The notes under the pieces are model-generated. The model saw only the letters and a program-made list of their open reading frames with translations, did not search any database and had not been told where the DNA came from. The translations under genes were made by a program, and so were the position numbers. Positions 22,221 through 42,129 of a DNA stretch of 44,290 bases are shown here, in pieces (position 1 is the first letter of the stretch; every line of letters begins with the position of its first letter). The DNA comes from an uncultured Pseudomonadota bacterium (GTDB lineage Bacteria; Pseudomonadota; Gammaproteobacteria; Steroidobacterales; Steroidobacteraceae): the NCBI GenBank assembly GCA_903898785.1, contig CAIUGU010000041.1:1-44290 (forward strand), in the 5' to 3' direction.

Positions 22221-22363
22221 ATACTGCGGCTGTCCGCATTGACAGGCCTTTCGGCGACCGACACCTTCCCCCCCGATCAGCACCGGAAAGCGCCGATTTC
22301 GAATCCGTCCGACCCGCGGCAACGAACCGTTGCTGGCGAACCGACCCCTGAGGAGTGAATGCC

Positions 22364-23185
22364 ATGGCTACCACCGCCGATCGTCCCGCCCTGCCAGGGA
22401 TCGAAGACGTCCAGAGCCGTGCCGATACGCGCCAGCTCCCCATCAACAAGGTGGGCATCAAGGACATCTACCACCCCGTGCGGGTCAAGGACCGCCAGGG
22501 CGGCGAGCAGCACACGGTCGCGAACTTCAACATGTACGTCGCGCTGCCCCACAACTTCAAGGGCACGCACATGTCGCGCTTCGTCGAGATCCTCAACCGC
22601 AACGAGCGCGAAATCTCGGTGGAGTCATTCCGCGGCATGCTGGCCGACATGACGAAGCGGCTTGACGCCGAATCCGGCCACATCGAGATGAGCTTCCCCT
22701 ACTTCGTGATGAAGAAGGCGCCGGTCACCGGCGTGGCAAGCCTCATGGACTACAAGGCGGCACTGATCGGGGACTTCCACGGCGGCCAGGCGGAACTGTG
22801 GATCAAGGTCGTCGTGTCGGTCACGAGCCTGTGCCCCTGCTCGAAGGACATCTCGGACTACGGCGCGCACAACCAGCGCTCGCACATCACGATCAAGGCG
22901 CGCATCGCCGACCACATGTGGCTCGAGGAACTGATTGATATCGCCGAGAAGGAAGCGTCCTGCGAGGTCTACGGGATCCTGAAGCGCCCGGACGAGAAGT
23001 ACGTGACGGAGCGGGCGTACGACAACCCCAAGTTCGTGGAGGACATCGTCCGCGACGTGGCGGTCCGCCTCAACAACGAGCCCAGGGTGCGGGCTTATGT
23101 CGTCGAGTCAGAGAATTTCGAGTCGATCCACAACCACTCGGCGTATGCGCTTATCGAAGCGGACAAGGACAGGAAGAAAACCTGA
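22364..23185 (+). CDS. folE2: GTP cyclohydrolase FolE2 (type IB)
   Basis: 273 aa from ATG at 22364, chosen because AGGAG (22351-22355) lies 8 nt upstream; the open frame's earlier GTG at 22355 overlaps that site. It converts GTP to dihydroneopterin triphosphate, the first step of folate synthesis, and works with metals other than zinc. Seen: the N-terminal [13 protein letters not shown], the [13 protein letters not shown] segment (61-73), the active-site region [10 protein letters not shown] with Cys157 and Cys159, and GAHNQRSH at 167-174. It belongs to the T-fold COG1469 family, not canonical FolE. Many bacteria express FolE2 under zinc limitation through Zur, but I see no Zur-type box in the 180 bp upstream. 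Confidence 0.95.
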
Positions 23186-23205: not shown

Positions 23206-24525
23206 TCAGGTGCCGGCGCGTTCGCCGCTTTGCAACCGCCCGATCAGGTTGCTGAGGAAGACCTTGTTGAAGCGCAGCTGGCAGGCGGCGGAAGCCTGCT
23301 CCAGCAGTGTTGAACTGACCTTCATCAGCGTGACGTCGGAGAGCGCCTTGATGGTCGCAAGCCGCTTGGCGCCCCTCAGGTAGCTCGTCTCTCCGAAGCA
23401 GTCGCCCATGTCGAGCTCGCCCACCGTGCGCCCATTGCGCGCCACGGCGACCTTGCCCGAGACGATGACGTAGAAGCGATCGTCCATCTCGCCCTCGCGC
23501 ACGATCTCGTCGTTCACGTCATAGTCTTGCCAGTGGCTGGCGCGCAGCACTTCCATGATCTCGGACTGCGAGAAATCATGGAAGAACTTCAGTGTCCTCA
23601 GGATCGAGAACTGCTCCTGGCGGTCAAGCTTGGCATAGCTTTCGCGCAGCCTCTGGTGGACTCGCGTCAGCGCGCCCGCAAGGTCCTGGCCGTTCTGGAA
23701 GCGATTGTCGGGATCCTTCTGCAACGCCTTGACGACGACGTCCTCGAGTTCCTCGGGAACGCCCGAGCGCAGCGTGTGGATCGGCTGTGCCGTGGCATAG
23801 ACGATCTGGTGCAGGAGCTTCGACAGGTTGCCGCCGCGGAACGGCCGGAAGCCGGTCAGCATCTCGTACATCACGGCGCCGAGCGCATAGATGTCAGAGC
23901 GGTTCGTGATGTCGGCAGACTGGATCTGCTCGGGTGACATGTAGGACGGGCTGCCGGCGATGCCTTCGATGCGGGAGATGTCGGAGTCAGCGACCAGCGC
24001 GATGCCGAAATCGATGATGCGCACGTCGTTCGACTGCGTCAGCATGATGTTGGACGGCTTGATGTCGCGGTGGATGACCCCGCGGCGGTGCGCGTAGTGG
24101 AGCGCCTTGGCGCACTTGTAGATGATCTCGACGACGTCGTCGATGGGCAGCAGGTTGTCGGGCTTGCAGTAGGCAGCGAGCGTGCGTGCGCCGTGTACAT
24201 GCTCGGTAACGATGTAATAGCGACCCTGCTCCTCGCCGGCATCGAAGATCGGCAGGATGTTCGGATGCTGCAGCATGCCGACCATGTGTGCCTCGGACAG
24301 GAACATCTTGCGGGTGACGCGCGCGCGATCCTCGTCGGTGGTCTCGATGTTGTAGACCTTGATGGCCACATCGCGACGGTAGTAGGGATCGTGCGAAAGA
24401 TAGACGATGCCCGTGCTGCCCCGACCGACTTCCTTGACGATCGTATACTTGCCTATGCGCTCGGGAATGCCCGGATCCCGGCCCCCCGCCACGTTGACCA
24501 ATGCTTTGACGGGTTCGGAAGGCAT
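23206..24525 (-). CDS. Ser/Thr protein kinase with C-terminal cyclic-nucleotide-binding domain
   Basis: 439 aa from ATG at 24525, 19 nt after pgpA; the frame extends to 24606 but that part overlaps pgpA and is rejected. Seen: a Hanks-type kinase domain (about 27-290) with glycine loop GRGSTG (34-39), Lys56 in VAIKVY, Glu78, catalytic loop HRDIKPSN (152-159), DFG (172-174) and SPE (197-199), so it should be active. A CNB/Crp-like domain follows (about 315-405) with EGEMDDRFYVIVSGKVAV and a phosphate-cassette-like FGETSYLRGAKRLAT. No membrane helix or extracellular sensor, so it is cytoplasmic. Substrate and ligand are unknown. It is the last gene of the glyA-to-pgpA run and faces folE2 tail-to-tail with 20 nt between. 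Confidence 0.9.
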   Translation of the reverse strand: MPSEPVKALVNVAGGRDPGIPERIGKYTIVKEVGRGSTGIVYLSHDPYYRRDVAIKVYNIETTDEDRARVTRKMFLSEAHMVGMLQHPNILPIFDAGEEQGRYYIVTEHVHGARTLAAYCKPDNLLPIDDVVEIIYKCAKALHYAHRRGVIHRDIKPSNIMLTQSNDVRIIDFGIALVADSDISRIEGIAGSPSYMSPEQIQSADITNRSDIYALGAVMYEMLTGFRPFRGGNLSKLLHQIVYATAQPIHTLRSGVPEELEDVVVKALQKDPDNRFQNGQDLAGALTRVHQRLRESYAKLDRQEQFSILRTLKFFHDFSQSEIMEVLRASHWQDYDVNDEIVREGEMDDRFYVIVSGKVAVARNGRTVGELDMGDCFGETSYLRGAKRLATIKALSDVTLMKVSSTLLEQASAACQLRFNKVFLSNLIGRLQSGERAGT

Positions 24526-24544: not shown

Positions 24545-25021
24545 CTAGAGCAGGAGGTGGACCAGATACAGGATCGCTCCCGCAAAAATGCCTGCGAGAA
24601 CGTCATCGAGCATAATTCCGAGACCTCCCTTGAGACTGTGATCGGCCTCCCGGATCGGCCAGGGCTTCACGATGTCGAAGAAGCGGAACAACCCGAACCC
24701 GGCCAGCAGCCACAGGGGCTCCGCAGGCGCCGCCAGCATCGTGATCGCGTAGCCGACCACCTCGTCCCAGACGATGCCGCCATGGTCATGGACACCGAGG
24801 CGGCGCGCGCTTTCGCCACACACGTAGACCCCGACGAGGAAGCCGGCGAGTACCAGCGCCAGCTGCACCATGAGCCCCAAGGGAGCCATGAGCAGGACGA
24901 AGGGAATCCCGACAATCGTCCCGAAGGTCCCGGGGGCATAGGGACTCAGGCCAGCGCCGAACCCGAAGGCCACCAGGTGCACAGGATCTCGAAGGATGCG
25001 GGGGCTGGCACTCCACCTCAT
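24545..25021 (-). CDS. pgpA: Phosphatidylglycerophosphatase A
   Basis: 158 aa. An inner-membrane phosphatase that removes phosphate from phosphatidylglycerophosphate to give phosphatidylglycerol. Seen: FGFGAGLSPYAPGTFGTIVG at about residues 19-38, the acidic motif IVWDEVVGYAITM, RFFDIVKPWPIRE and GLGIMLDDVLAG near the C-terminus, with about four hydrophobic helices. All are PgpA hallmarks. It follows thiL by 51 nt, the standard nusB-thiL-pgpA order in gammaproteobacteria. The stop is 19 nt before the start of the kinase gene. Confidence 0.95.
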   Translation of the reverse strand: MRWSASPRILRDPVHLVAFGFGAGLSPYAPGTFGTIVGIPFVLLMAPLGLMVQLALVLAGFLVGVYVCGESARRLGVHDHGGIVWDEVVGYAITMLAAPAEPLWLLAGFGLFRFFDIVKPWPIREADHSLKGGLGIMLDDVLAGIFAGAILYLVHLLL

Positions 25022-25072: not shown

Positions 25073-26062
25073 TCAGGCTCCAGCAAAGTGGTCATAGCCT
25101 GACGTCGCAACAGTCACTGCCCGCCCGCCGCGCAGGCACTGCACGACAGACTGGCCAGGATCTCGCTGCGTGATGCGCCCTATGCGAGTGCAAGCCGGTT
25201 CCAGGTTGCCACAGAGTGCCTCGAACTCAGGGACCCGCTCCGCAGCGATGGTAAACAACAATTCGTAGTCATCGCCGCCCGAGAGCGCAAAGCGCTCGAC
25301 AGCGGCGGCATCGAACAATGCGGGCATAGAAGGTGACACCGGCAGGCGATCCATCTCTAGCTGCGCAGCGCAGCCACTCGCGTCGCATAACTTGCCGAGA
25401 TCGCCAAGCAATCCGTCCGAGACATCCATCGCGGCAGACGCCAGTGTGCGCAGCGTCCGCCCCAACGCCACCCTGGGCTCCGGCGAATTGAAACGATGCT
25501 GCAGGACGTCACCCGCTGTGCCGCCTTGAAGCTGTCGCTGGATCACGGCGAGCCCAGCCGCCGATTCTCCCGGGATGCCTGATACGTAGATGAAATCCCC
25601 GGGACGCGCTCCTCCGCGAGTCAGTGCATGGTCTGCTTCGATGAAGCCCAATACCTGCACCGTGATGACGAGCGGACCTTTGACGGTATCGCCGCCGACC
25701 AGCGCGACGTTGTATCGCTGCGCCAGGTCATGAAAGCCGCTCGAGAACTCCTGCAACCAGTCGGGATTGGATTCGGGGAGTGACAACGACAGCAACGCCC
25801 ACGCGGGCTCGGCTCCCATCGCAGCCAGATCGCTCAGGTTGACGGCAAGTGCGCGATGGCCGATGAAGCGGGCCGCAGTACCGGCAGGAAAGTGGACCCC
25901 TTCGACGATCGTATCCATGGCCGCAACGAGACGACGGTCCGCAGGGACTTGCAGCAGCGCCGCGTCATCGCCGATGCCCAGCAGGACATCGCTGCGGGCG
26001 CTCCGCCTCGCGAAGTAGCGGGAGATGATCTCGAACTCGCCGGGAGGAACAGCCGAAGTCAT
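25073..26062 (-). CDS. thiL: Thiamine-monophosphate kinase
   Basis: 329 aa. It phosphorylates thiamine monophosphate to thiamine diphosphate with ATP. Seen: GEFEIISRYF at the N-terminus, the metal-binding GIGDDAALL at about 29-37, MDTIVEGVHF at 49-58, LAVNLSDLAAMGAEPAW, GGDTVKGPLVITV and DVSDGLLGDLGKL, then SGGDDYELLFT. These mark the PurM-like ThiL family. It lies 36 nt after nusB and before pgpA. Its product is the cofactor of Dxs, encoded 3 kb away on the other strand. Confidence 0.96.
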   Translation of the reverse strand: MTSAVPPGEFEIISRYFARRSARSDVLLGIGDDAALLQVPADRRLVAAMDTIVEGVHFPAGTAARFIGHRALAVNLSDLAAMGAEPAWALLSLSLPESNPDWLQEFSSGFHDLAQRYNVALVGGDTVKGPLVITVQVLGFIEADHALTRGGARPGDFIYVSGIPGESAAGLAVIQRQLQGGTAGDVLQHRFNSPEPRVALGRTLRTLASAAMDVSDGLLGDLGKLCDASGCAAQLEMDRLPVSPSMPALFDAAAVERFALSGGDDYELLFTIAAERVPEFEALCGNLEPACTRIGRITQRDPGQSVVQCLRGGRAVTVATSGYDHFAGA

Positions 26063-26098: not shown

Positions 26099-26578
26099 TC
26101 AGGGAACCGAACCCGCTGCACCCGGAGCCACTTCAGCGCGGCGTTCGCGAGCAGCCTTGTCGAGCAGCGCATTGATGTATTTGTGTCCGTCCGTGGCACC
26201 GAATTTCTTGGACAGCTCGACGGCCTCGTTGATGACGACGCGGTGCGGCACGTCGGGCCGGGCAACCAGCTCATACAGGCCGAGCCACAGGATCGCGCGC
26301 TCCACGGGATCGATCTGGGCGACAGGACGATCGGCATAGCTCCCGAGTACGGCATCGAGCTCGGCGTTGCGGGCGATGCAGTTCTGCACGAGATCGGTGA
26401 AGTACTCCGCATCGGCCCCCGCATAATCCTCGCTGGTGGCGTACTGCAGCCCCAACTCTGCCGCAGCGCCCGCATCCTGCCCCGTGAGCTGCCACTGGTA
26501 CATGGCCTGCATGGCGAGCTTTCGCGCGACGCTACGTGCGCGACTGCCCCGCCCTGTCTTGCGTGCGGGTTGGCTCAA
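26099..26578 (-). CDS. nusB: Transcription antitermination factor NusB
   Basis: 159 aa from a TTG at 26578 that overlaps the ribH stop codon (TTGA), with AGGCGG upstream. An ATG at 26620 in the same frame would give 173 aa but overlaps ribH by 46 nt; the TTG gives an N-terminus like other NusB proteins (MSQPARK, then [21 protein letters not shown]). NusB binds boxA RNA with NusE/S10 and supports rRNA antitermination. Seen: the all-helical core with [49 protein letters not shown] and [13 protein letters not shown]. The ribH-nusB overlap indicates translational coupling, as in E. coli. Confidence 0.93.
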
Positions 26579-27051
26579 GATTCGAGCCGCCTGAGCAGGT
26601 TGGCGAGTTCCAGTGCGCACAGGGCCGCGTCGGCACCCTTGTTGCCGGACTTGGTGCCGGCACGATCGATGGCCTGCTCTACCGTTTCAGTCGTCAGCAC
26701 GCCAAAGGCCACAGGCACACCCGTATCGTGCGACACCCGCGCGAGGCCGCCGGCACACTCGCCCGCGACGTAATCGAAATGGGCGGTATCGCCGCGAATG
26801 ACGGCCCCGAGCGCGACGATCGCATCGTATCGGCGACTCGCCGCGAGCTTCCGCACGACCAGCGGCAAATCGTAGGCACCGGGCACCTTGATGATCTCCA
26901 GCTGTTTGTCGCTGGCGCCGTGGCGCTTGAGGATGTCGACGGCACCCAGGACCAGCTGATCGACCACGAACTGGTTGAAGCGCGTGGCGGCAATGGCGAA
27001 GCGCAGGTCGCGGACCTGCAGGTCGCCCTCGATGATTTTCACGTTGTCCAT
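26575..27051 (-). CDS. ribH: 6,7-dimethyl-8-ribityllumazine synthase
   Basis: 158 aa. It condenses 5-amino-6-ribitylamino-uracil with dihydroxybutanone phosphate; family members form large capsids. Seen: [16 protein letters not shown] with the substrate-binding Phe-Asn region at 18-33, [14 protein letters not shown] at about 56-69, [19 protein letters not shown] with the catalytic His (HFDYV) and [13 protein letters not shown]. Fourth of the riboflavin genes on this strand, 54 nt after the ribB gene, and overlapping nusB by a few bases. Confidence 0.96.
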
Positions 27052-27105: not shown

Positions 27106-28212
27106 CTAACTCTCGACGTACTCGACGACCTCGAGGTCGAACCCAGAGATTCCAAGCATCTGCTTCGGCGCCGACAGCACCCGCATGCGATTGATGCCGA
27201 GATCCTTGAGGATCTGCGCGCCGATACCGTAGGTCCTGAGCACCTTCATGCCGGTCGACTGGGCAGCGTTGGCGGCCTCTGCCGATGCCAGGCCTCCGAC
27301 GGCGTCCATGAGGTCCCGCGGGGTCTCCGTCGGGCGCAACAGCACGACGACACCACAGCCTTCTGCTGCAATCCTCTGCATCGCCGACCGCAACGGCCGC
27401 CCGAGCGATTCCAGCTGGACGCCCACCAGGTCGCGTACGGTGTCCCGCAGATGCACGCGCACGAGCGGTGCCGCCACTGCAGCGATGTCGCCACGCACCA
27501 GTGCGAGGTGAACGGTCTGGTTCACGTGGTCTTCATAGGCGACCATCCGGAAAGGCCCGAACTCGGTGGCGATCTGGCGCTCAGCGATGCGCTCGACCGA
27601 CCGCTCCTTCTCCAGGCGGTAGCGGATCAGGTCTGCGATCGTGCCGATCTTGAGTCCATGGTGCCCGGCGAACTTCTCGAGGTCCGGCCTGCGCGCCATC
27701 GTGCCGTCGTCGTTGAGGATCTCGACGATCACTGCCGCAGGCTGACAGCCGGCGAGCCGCGCCAGGTCGCAGCCTGCCTCGGTATGGCCCGCGCGCGTCA
27801 GCACGCCACCCGGCTGCGCCATGAGCGGAAAGATATGCCCGGGCTGCCGCAGGTCTCCGGGGACGGCCTTGGGATGGACGGCGGTCAGGACCGTATGGGC
27901 ACGGTCATGGGCCGAGATTCCGGTCGTCACGCCTTCAGCGGCCTCGATCGACACGGTGAAATTGGTAGCGTGCTCGAGGTGCGTATCGCTGACCATCAGG
28001 GGCAGGCGCAACTGCTTGCATCGCTCCTGCGTGAGCGTCAGGCAGATCAGGCCGCGGCCGTAGCGCGCCATGAAGTTGATGTCCTCGGCGCGAACGAACT
28101 CGGCGGCCATCAGCAAGTCGCCTTCGTTCTCGCGGTCCTCGTCGTCCATGATCACGACCATGCGCCCCGCACGCAGGTCCGCCAGGATCTCCTCGATCGA
28201 ATGCAGGGTCAT
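27106..28212 (-). CDS. ribB: 3,4-dihydroxy-2-butanone-4-phosphate synthase with degenerate RibA domain (RibBX type)
   Basis: 368 aa. The N-terminal domain (1-200) is intact RibB: DDEDRENEGDL (23-33), TGISAHDRAHT, and RAGHTEAGCDLARLAG with the catalytic His. The C-terminal domain has GTP cyclohydrolase II length and fold signs but lacks its chemistry. The zinc site, normally VHSEC followed by LRCDCG, reads VHLRD and LESLG, and the GTP-site RQEGRGIGL reads RPTETPRDL. So the protein should make dihydroxybutanone phosphate but not open GTP; a separate RibA is needed elsewhere. Such RibBX forms are known in several proteobacteria. It overlaps the riboflavin synthase stop by 4 nt (ATGA). Confidence 0.93.
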   Translation of the reverse strand: MTLHSIEEILADLRAGRMVVIMDDEDRENEGDLLMAAEFVRAEDINFMARYGRGLICLTLTQERCKQLRLPLMVSDTHLEHATNFTVSIEAAEGVTTGISAHDRAHTVLTAVHPKAVPGDLRQPGHIFPLMAQPGGVLTRAGHTEAGCDLARLAGCQPAAVIVEILNDDGTMARRPDLEKFAGHHGLKIGTIADLIRYRLEKERSVERIAERQIATEFGPFRMVAYEDHVNQTVHLALVRGDIAAVAAPLVRVHLRDTVRDLVGVQLESLGRPLRSAMQRIAAEGCGVVVLLRPTETPRDLMDAVGGLASAEAANAAQSTGMKVLRTYGIGAQILKDLGINRMRVLSAPKQMLGISGFDLEVVEYVES

Positions 28213-40785: not shown

Positions 40786-42129
40786 GTGGCGTTAAAACTT
40801 CGGGTCATCAGCGACCAATACCGGCAATTGGGCAAGCGCAGCTCGCGGCTGTTCGGCGTGTCCGGTGGTCGCATTGGCCGTTCCCCCGACAACGACTGGA
40901 TCCTGCCGGATCCGGACCGCTATATCTCGAGCCATCACGCGAAGGTCTCGTTCCGTGCAGGCGCCTGGATCCTCGAGGACACCAGCACGAATGGCGTCTT
41001 CGTCAACGGCTCCGAGACGCCGCTCTCCGAAGACGGCTTCCACAAACTGCTGGACGGCGACCGCTTGCGCCTCGGCGACTACGAGTTGCTGGTCAGCATC
41101 GACGAGCGCAACGACTTCCCGCCCGACGCGAGCGGGCAAATGCCCACGCCTTCGCTTGCACGCGCCAGCAGCCCCTTCGGTGAAGACCTGGGCGAAGACC
41201 TGGATATCTCCGCGCTGCTGATGGGCGGCGCCCCCGAACAGGTCCCGCGATCGCTCAAGGAAGAACCCTTTGAGCTGTCCAACGCCTACGGTATCGAGAT
41301 CCCGCTGACGCCGTCCGCGCCGCCTCCGGAGCGCGAATCGCCGGCCGGTTCCCTGGTGGGCACCCTTGCCGACCAGGGCCCGCAGCGCACGCTTGCCGGC
41401 AAGGCCACGCCGGATTGGCACCTGGCGACCCGCCCCCTCGACCGCAAGCAGGTCGCGGCACTGCAAAGCGCTTCAAGGCGGGAAACCGACTCTGCGCCGC
41501 GCATCGGACAGGGTTCGCGCGAACTGGATGCAGGCCTTGAGGCGTTCTGTCGCGGCATCGGCATCGACCCGGCGTCGCTCCCGGTCGAAACTCACGCGGC
41601 CATGCTGACCATGGCCGGACAGATGCTGCGAGAAGTGGCTGTGTCGCTGATGGACGCGCTGCAGACCCGCTCCGACCTCAAGAACCGGATGAACCTCGGC
41701 CAGACGACGATCCAGCCGGGCGAGAACAATCCCTTCAAGTTCTCGACCAGCGTGGATGAAGCCGTGCGCAAGCTGCTCGATGGCCACAACACCCGTTACC
41801 TCGGACCGATCGAAGCGATCCGCGAATCGTTCAACGATCTCAAGACCCATCAGGCGTCGTTGAATGCAGCGATGCAGGCTGCGGTGGATTCGCTGCTCGA
41901 CCGCCTGGAACCCACGGACCTGCAGGAAAGGTTCGACCGCGGCCTCAAGAGAGGCTCGCTGCTTGGCGCTGCGAACAAGATCAAGTACTGGGACCTCTAC
42001 GCAGAGTTCTACCAGGTCCTGAACCAGCGCGATGAGGCTGGCCTGCCGACGGTCTTCTCCGAGGAATTCGCGAAGGCGTATGTCGACCACTCCGCGGACC
42101 CCCGTCCGGGAGGTCGTCGCCGCGGCTAG
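40786..42129 (+). CDS. TagH-like type VI secretion-associated FHA-domain protein
   Basis: 447 aa from GTG at 40786, preceded by AGGGGAAG at a good distance. Seen: an N-terminal FHA domain (about 5-100) with the phosphothreonine-binding residues GRS (31-33), SSHHAKV (48-54) and DTSTNGVFVNG (65-75); a Pro/Ser-rich linker (about 105-240); and the C-terminal T6SS FHA domain (about 245-430) with SRELDAGLEAFCRGIGID, LKNRMNLGQTTIQPGENNPFKF, YLGPIEAIRESFNDLKTHQ and KYWDLYAEFYQVL. Family members act in threonine-phosphorylation control of T6SS assembly. No other T6SS gene, kinase or phosphatase is adjacent here, so the role is uncertain. It has its own upstream region divergent from DUF1820. Confidence 0.88.
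   Translation: MALKLRVISDQYRQLGKRSSRLFGVSGGRIGRSPDNDWILPDPDRYISSHHAKVSFRAGAWILEDTSTNGVFVNGSETPLSEDGFHKLLDGDRLRLGDYELLVSIDERNDFPPDASGQMPTPSLARASSPFGEDLGEDLDISALLMGGAPEQVPRSLKEEPFELSNAYGIEIPLTPSAPPPERESPAGSLVGTLADQGPQRTLAGKATPDWHLATRPLDRKQVAALQSASRRETDSAPRIGQGSRELDAGLEAFCRGIGIDPASLPVETHAAMLTMAGQMLREVAVSLMDALQTRSDLKNRMNLGQTTIQPGENNPFKFSTSVDEAVRKLLDGHNTRYLGPIEAIRESFNDLKTHQASLNAAMQAAVDSLLDRLEPTDLQERFDRGLKRGSLLGAANKIKYWDLYAEFYQVLNQRDEAGLPTVFSEEFAKAYVDHSADPRPGGRRRG

Follow-up and report, generated by a model that had tools for sequence, protein, structure and literature searches.

The window analysed here, a 44,290-nucleotide stretch of contig CAIUGU010000041.1 from an uncultured member of the Steroidobacteraceae, contains at positions 23206–24525 of the minus strand an intact open reading frame of 439 amino acids with its ATG at 24525 (the plus-strand frame over the same interval has two stops). 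The encoded protein, a kinase joined to a C-terminal cyclic nucleotide-binding (CNB) domain and referred to below as KIN, is specified by the final gene of a minus-strand run that also includes ribBA (27106–28212, named by eye and used as a query), ribH (26575–27051), nusB (26099–26620) and thiL (25073–26062), the last three identified by profile matches, and, directly upstream of KIN, pgpA (24545–25021; PF04608). The pgpA TAG ends at 24545, leaving a gap of 19 nt, and the convergent folE2 gene (22355–23185, plus strand; profile match) ends 20 nt past the KIN stop codon. Gene order in the window thus agrees with the original prediction that the kinase gene closes a riboflavin/nusB/thiL/pgpA run, 19 nt after pgpA. 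An alternative in-frame ATG at 24606 would make the KIN gene overlap pgpA; either start is possible, and conservation in alignments begins only around residue 20.

The nrdR-rib-nusB-thiL-pgpA operon of V. cholerae has a gene order like that of the window and, according to the accessible portion of one report, RT-PCR reveals a single transcript to pgpA; the operon spans proB to pgpA, and this portion of the report names no kinase (PMC5312566). KIN is presumably co-transcribed with its own operon. Between positions 22300 and 30700, promoter- and terminator-like sites were no more numerous than in shuffled sequences (0 versus 1.4 and 3 versus 4.3, respectively). No Rfam family reached its gathering score anywhere in the window and no riboswitch was found, so riboswitch control of the KIN operon was dropped from consideration.

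Profile searches place the Hanks-type kinase domain (PF00069, 179 bits) on residues 27–277 of KIN (23695–24447) and the cNMP_binding domain (PF00027, 57.5 bits against a cut-off of 27.5) on residues 335–410 (23296–23523), the latter matched structurally as well. Every catalytic motif was found in the kinase domain (GRGSTG, VAIK, HRDIKPSN, DFG and SPE), including the catalytic Lys, the Glu, the HRD and DFG motifs and the APE-type Glu that characterise Hanks-type Ser/Thr kinases. The CNB domain has the expected fold and a canonical phosphate-binding cassette (PBC) of the form FGE...R, located by alignment at residues 377–391 (FGETSYLRGAKRLAT; 23353–23397), with E379 and R388 as its key positions. 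In the predicted structure the two domains are linked by a long helix, residues 279–311 (23593–23691). No 19-residue window has a KD value above 1.06, so a transmembrane helix is not expected, and KIN is predicted to be a soluble cytoplasmic protein. The first reading of the sequence, as a cytoplasmic protein in which an intact Hanks-type kinase precedes a CNB domain, the order opposite to that of PKG, was therefore sound, and KIN is very likely to be catalytically active.

PKG has several N-terminal CNB domains followed by a kinase domain of the AGC type. Eukaryotic PKG and KIN both carry CNB and kinase domains in one chain, and the best PDB sequence matches of the KIN CNB are the CNB domains of Plasmodium PKG. 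KIN differs, however, in having the kinase first, a single C-terminal CNB in place of N-terminal tandem CNBs, and a PknB-like kinase domain. Indeed, the closest PDB folds of the kinase half are PknB kinase domains (32–35% identity), and the best NCBIfam match of KIN is the PASTA kinase model NF033483 (residues 25–304), although the score of 273.7 bits falls well below the cut-off of 450. Unlike the PknB/PASTA kinases, KIN has no predicted transmembrane helix, and a profile search found no PASTA domain in it.

The kinase–CNB architecture has already been noted in bacteria in general terms. In the accessible portion of the survey by Kannan et al. (2007), the ‘Other_bacterial’ table lists kinases among the domains attached to bacterial CNBs, as in KIN, but gives no operon context, partner or clade (PMC2246266). 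In the available part of a 2024 study of Planctomycetota, the kinase-associated domains held in common with eukaryotes likewise include the cyclic nucleotide-binding domain (PMC11032199). The available text of a review of Hanks kinases in bacteria, published in 2018, contains ‘cyclic AMP’ once and none of ‘cyclic nucleotide’, cNMP, cAMP or cGMP (PMC6213207). Among the matches listed in a search of titles and abstract openings in the open-licence literature, we found no experiment on a cyclic-nucleotide-controlled bacterial Hanks kinase; nor did the matches listed in that literature include a report of the thiL-pgpA-KIN linkage or of the rph-locus kinase–PP2C pair described below.

To place KIN among its relatives, we used a sample of 100 genomes of the family, the window’s own included, and a sample of 274 genomes of the class. 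KIN is present in 86 of the 100 family genomes by a count made by hand from search matches: 84 copies are near full-length (54–100% identity) and two are split over two contig pieces. The notion that a signalling kinase at the end of such an operon is unusual does not hold, then; the position is the rule among the loci examined and not an accident of one genome. Of the 14 KIN-negative genomes, six retain thiL and all belong to one genus; the other eight also lack a thiL orthologue, so these are probably assembly gaps in which the status of KIN is not decidable, and a provisional statement that KIN is missing from many family members was dropped for this reason. A KIN-family match at E ≤ 1e-80 was obtained in 49 of the 274 class genomes. 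Povalibacter uvarum (81%; Steroidobacteraceae) is the nearest isolate with a name among the 80 named loci, and the titles of further loci give Steroidobacteraceae and Woeseiaceae, many stating just Gammaproteobacteria or Proteobacteria; NCBI taxonomy assigns the two families to Steroidobacterales and Woeseiales, orders of the Gammaproteobacteria.

Linkage to the operon is conserved in these relatives. Immediately upstream of KIN lies pgpA in 44 of the 80 named loci and thiL in 33, making 77 with one or the other; of the remaining three, two begin at a contig end and one (L045) has nusB. The proposed pgpA–kinase linkage therefore stands as far as the operon is concerned, but pgpA itself is not the constant neighbour: because thiL is directly upstream with no intervening pgpA in 33 of 80 loci, it is the thiL end of the operon to which KIN is stably joined. 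Convergent folE2 and dxs genes are common downstream. In L045, and likewise in L025, no thiL match is found between nusB and KIN; the two loci probably represent one genome. The thiL-pgpA-KIN order recurs in four other families (G279, G138, G216, G332, G246 and G358), where KIN is 41–53% identical.

A quick maximum-likelihood tree of 57 sequences with the kinase–CNB architecture groups 29 of the 30 operon-linked sequences with an SH-aLRT value of 90 and leaves all 27 unlinked ones outside; the thirtieth is a tandem second copy lying next to a linked copy. From this clustering, operon-linked KIN looks like a single vertically inherited subfamily, the support of 90 being under 95. The tandem pair of kinase–CNB genes occurs in G279, where the operon ends with thiL-pgpA (L147, 6822–9600). 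Among the unlinked relatives, whose neighbours include pgi, a gene for a CBS protein and other genes, five loci were seen in which two copies flank pgi and/or the gene for a CBS-pair protein; these neighbour families were checked in one locus (L149) and assigned by clustering in the others.

KIN is also well conserved in sequence. Its median identity to the window is 70.6% over the 80 named loci, compared with 48.8% for thiL (75 loci), 47.7% for nusB (71), 57.7% for pgpA (44), 59.6% for ribH (71), 69.4% for ribBA (69), 73.7% for dxs (25) and 76.9% for folE2 (26); matches of less than 70% coverage were excluded, and the loci were selected by KIN, which may favour it. Across 44 aligned sequences, that of the window among them, K56, E78, H152-R153-D154, K156, N159, D172-F173 and E199 are invariant, with E199 present in 138 of 139 rows of a larger alignment that probably counts some genomes twice under different names. 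In the same 139 rows the PBC glutamate E379 is universal (112/112 ingroup, 27/27 outgroup) and the PBC arginine R388 is found in 136 (110/112 ingroup, 26/27 outgroup); the three exceptions include one operon-linked copy, that of G138. Residue 184 (23974–23976), in the activation loop, is Ser in all 112 ingroup rows and Thr in 20 of the 27 outgroup rows, and from the alignment Ser184 is a candidate autophosphorylation site.

An AlphaFold model of whole KIN has a pLDDT of 85 and a pTM of 0.67, a value that leaves the way in which the two domains meet unfixed. The CNB modelled separately (pLDDT 87) resembles the CNB of PycTIR (8jsk, TMq 0.76), cAMP-bound PfPKA-R (0.73) and GlxR with cAMP (0.70). 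Judged by the near-universal E379 and R388, the pocket appears competent to bind a cyclic nucleotide; a pocket unable to bind a nucleotide had been named as grounds for abandoning the original prediction. The CNB is likely to bind a cyclic nucleotide and thereby to control the kinase. In PKG, the motif table in the accessible portion of PMC2246266 has Thr after the PBC arginine. The corresponding position in KIN, 389, is dominated by Thr, Gln and Leu, and since it varies and is Leu in the window, specificity for cGMP is not indicated. Of the 100 family genomes, 96 have class III cyclases, as do G265, G279 and G138; no match was found in the remaining four family genomes, all KIN-bearing, or in G246, G358, G216 and G332, which also carry KIN. 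These KIN-bearing genomes weaken the case for cAMP as a universal ligand.

The same four genomes of other families are among the reasons to consider for the CNB either a ligand that is not a cyclic mononucleotide or a structural or dimerisation role that needs no ligand. The variability of position 389 (T, Q or L) points the same way, as does the binding of nucleosides by the CNB domains of a trypanosome PKA, described in the accessible portion of PMC10959531. Against this, the PBC Glu and Arg are nearly invariant even in genomes where no class III cyclase was matched, and most family genomes do have cyclases. We regard such a role for the CNB as a serious competitor, though on balance an unlikely one.

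Operon position raises the further question of whether KIN regulates its own operon, phosphorylating RibBA, ThiL, NusB or PgpA and so tuning cofactor supply or antitermination to the level of a cyclic nucleotide. The persistence of thiL linkage in families whose KIN is merely 41–53% identical would fit this idea. However, the six genomes that lost KIN all retain thiL, and five retain nusB, ribH and ribBA as well, the locus of the sixth (L175) being too short. In addition, unlinked relatives of the same architecture adjoin unrelated genes such as pgi and that for the CBS protein, and the presence of pgpA varies among loci that all retain KIN. Own-operon regulation thus seems improbable, markedly more so than an unorthodox ligand.

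A different kind of partner is suggested by the PP2C phosphatases of the family. Two types are seen among the family loci read (genes were named by eye or by profile), one at a radA-alr-dnaB locus and the other between yicC and rph. The radA-locus PP2C often occurs with a kinase and an FHA protein (distinct from the FHA protein encoded in the window; e.g. L196 and L198), and the stretch of ~1.7 kb fetched at this PP2C lacked a kinase match in 7 of 26 genomes. The rph-locus PP2C was matched at E < 1e-60 in 87 of the 100 family genomes, its place beside rph having been read in all 26 genomes fetched and not in most of the others. It is found in 81 of the 86 KIN-bearing genomes; in the other five, which cannot be scored for the PP2C, either there is no rph or the gene is cut off by the end of its contig. 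All six KIN losers lack the rph-locus PP2C, and in each of them yicC and rph are adjacent. Where both loci are assembled, therefore, 81 family genomes have both genes, six have neither and none is discordant. Five of the six losers retain the radA-type PP2C (G099 has no PP2C_2 match at all), which indicates that the loss is specific, although six co-losses in one genus may perhaps represent one event. Among the eight genomes in which KIN could not be scored, six have the rph-locus PP2C and two do not, one of these being without rph and the other having rph near a contig end. The window’s own genome is incomplete, and neither the rph-locus PP2C nor rph was found in it.

Beyond the family, the rph-locus PP2C was matched at E ≤ 1e-25 in 58 of the 274 class genomes. 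One stretch was read for each of 64 class-sample PP2C matches listed, and a tree of the yicC/rph region was built from 53 loci, family loci included; one of these (L210) has no rph in reach. Other loci that carry the pair but have no rph nearby were excluded, as were lower-scoring PP2C matches at other places. In 34 of the 53, a kinase gene adjoins that of the PP2C (yicC|kinase-PP2C-rph) and no operon-linked KIN is known, although two of them, G208 and G325, do encode a relative of KIN, located away from thiL in G208. The PP2C and its place are the same as in the KIN lineage, but the paired kinase adjoins its PP2C, matches KIN only locally at 24–30% and, in L204, is a 303-residue protein with no CNB match. 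Nine loci combine KIN with a PP2C that has no adjacent kinase, six are those of the KIN losers, two (G216 and G332) have KIN with no PP2C_2 match and two (G254 and G365) have the PP2C with neither an adjacent kinase nor KIN at E ≤ 1e-80. On the tree the contrast between the KIN lineage and the rest requires just two changes, that is, few independent events, so the mutual exclusivity is strong as a pattern and weak as repeated evolution.

Further observations bear on the pairing in both directions. In G246 the sole Pkinase match is KIN and the sole PP2C_2 match is the rph-locus PP2C. In G216, however, KIN is again the sole Pkinase match with no PP2C_2, and G365 has the PP2C with zero Pkinase matches. 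In the class sample the rph-locus PP2C (E ≤ 1e-25) accompanies a KIN-family match in only 8 of 49 genomes, from which it follows that the kinase–CNB architecture itself does not require the phosphatase and that the pairing, if real, is limited to the operon-linked subfamily. A mirror-tree analysis used 19 genomes (171 pairs), seven of the 26 fetched having been dropped for want of a radA-locus kinase match in the stretch. With rph and thiL removed, partial correlations were 0.50 for KIN and the rph-locus PP2C, 0.61 for KIN and the radA-locus PP2C, 0.74 for the two phosphatases, 0.54 for the radA-locus kinase and its PP2C, 0.30 for the two kinases, and 0.24 for the radA-locus kinase and the rph-locus PP2C. 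By this measure, in 19 genomes, no specificity of KIN for the rph-locus PP2C was seen. That the two form a pair split over two loci is nonetheless plausible.

The explanation that best accommodates the observed architecture, motif conservation, linkage and presence/absence patterns is that KIN is a cyclic-nucleotide-set Ser/Thr kinase opposed by the rph-locus PP2C, and we assign this reading as a whole a probability of about 0.4. KIN would act as a soluble one-chain PKG with its domain order reversed, and a cyclic nucleotide on the C-terminal CNB, cAMP being the likeliest, would govern its activity. Binding in the pocket would be relayed through the C-helix and the 279–311 linker helix to the kinase domain; KIN would autophosphorylate its activation loop, perhaps at Ser184, and then phosphorylate cytoplasmic substrates. 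The end of the nrdR-ribDE-ribBA-ribH-nusB-thiL-(pgpA) operon would supply steady housekeeping transcription without KIN having to regulate the synthesis of riboflavin or thiamine. The phosphatase acting against KIN would most likely be the separately encoded PP2C at yicC|PP2C-rph-rdgB-hemW; given that in other lineages this PP2C has its own adjacent kinase, KIN seems to have become its partner. A bolder version, in which the reversed-PKG kinase forms a core Ser/Thr circuit of Steroidobacteraceae and related families, having non-orthologously displaced the rph-locus kinase to leave split loci, is possible but doubtful.

The window also encodes an FHA protein (40786–42129, plus strand), which adjoins a long purL-like open reading frame (by eye) and is TagH of the type VI secretion system (TIGR03354, 307 bits against a cut-off of 120). 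FHA proteins of type VI secretion systems act together with a kinase, and KIN might on that account be thought to work with this one. TagH lies 16 kb from KIN, however, and not in one operon with it, while KIN is found in 86 of 100 family genomes, with housekeeping genes around it at the loci that were read. We found nothing linking the two proteins, the earlier idea having been that the FHA protein could read phosphothreonine in the same cell; a joint role in type VI secretion is very improbable. Less credible still is an anti-phage kinase of the PD-T4-6 or MADS type, since the PADLOC PD-T4-6 models that match KIN (up to 271 bits) do so at best over the kinase domain and not the CNB, and would be expected to match many PknB-like kinases. 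A PD-T4-6 system should have a mobile or defence-island setting, and KIN lies in a conserved housekeeping operon; defence genes usually lack the fixed operon place and high conservation seen for KIN, and this candidate was rejected.

Among the literature matches listed, none showed direct cyclic-nucleotide control of a bacterial Hanks kinase. With many orthologues, a soluble single chain, a candidate phosphatase and Povalibacter uvarum DSM 26723 as a named strain, the KIN family makes such control directly testable. If the split pair is real, it would be a case in which the kinase partner has been exchanged while the phosphatase keeps its place.

Lastly, two cysteines in the CNB region of KIN are near-invariant, Cys376 in 138 and Cys415 in 131 of the 139 aligned rows, and a redox switch formed by them was considered.
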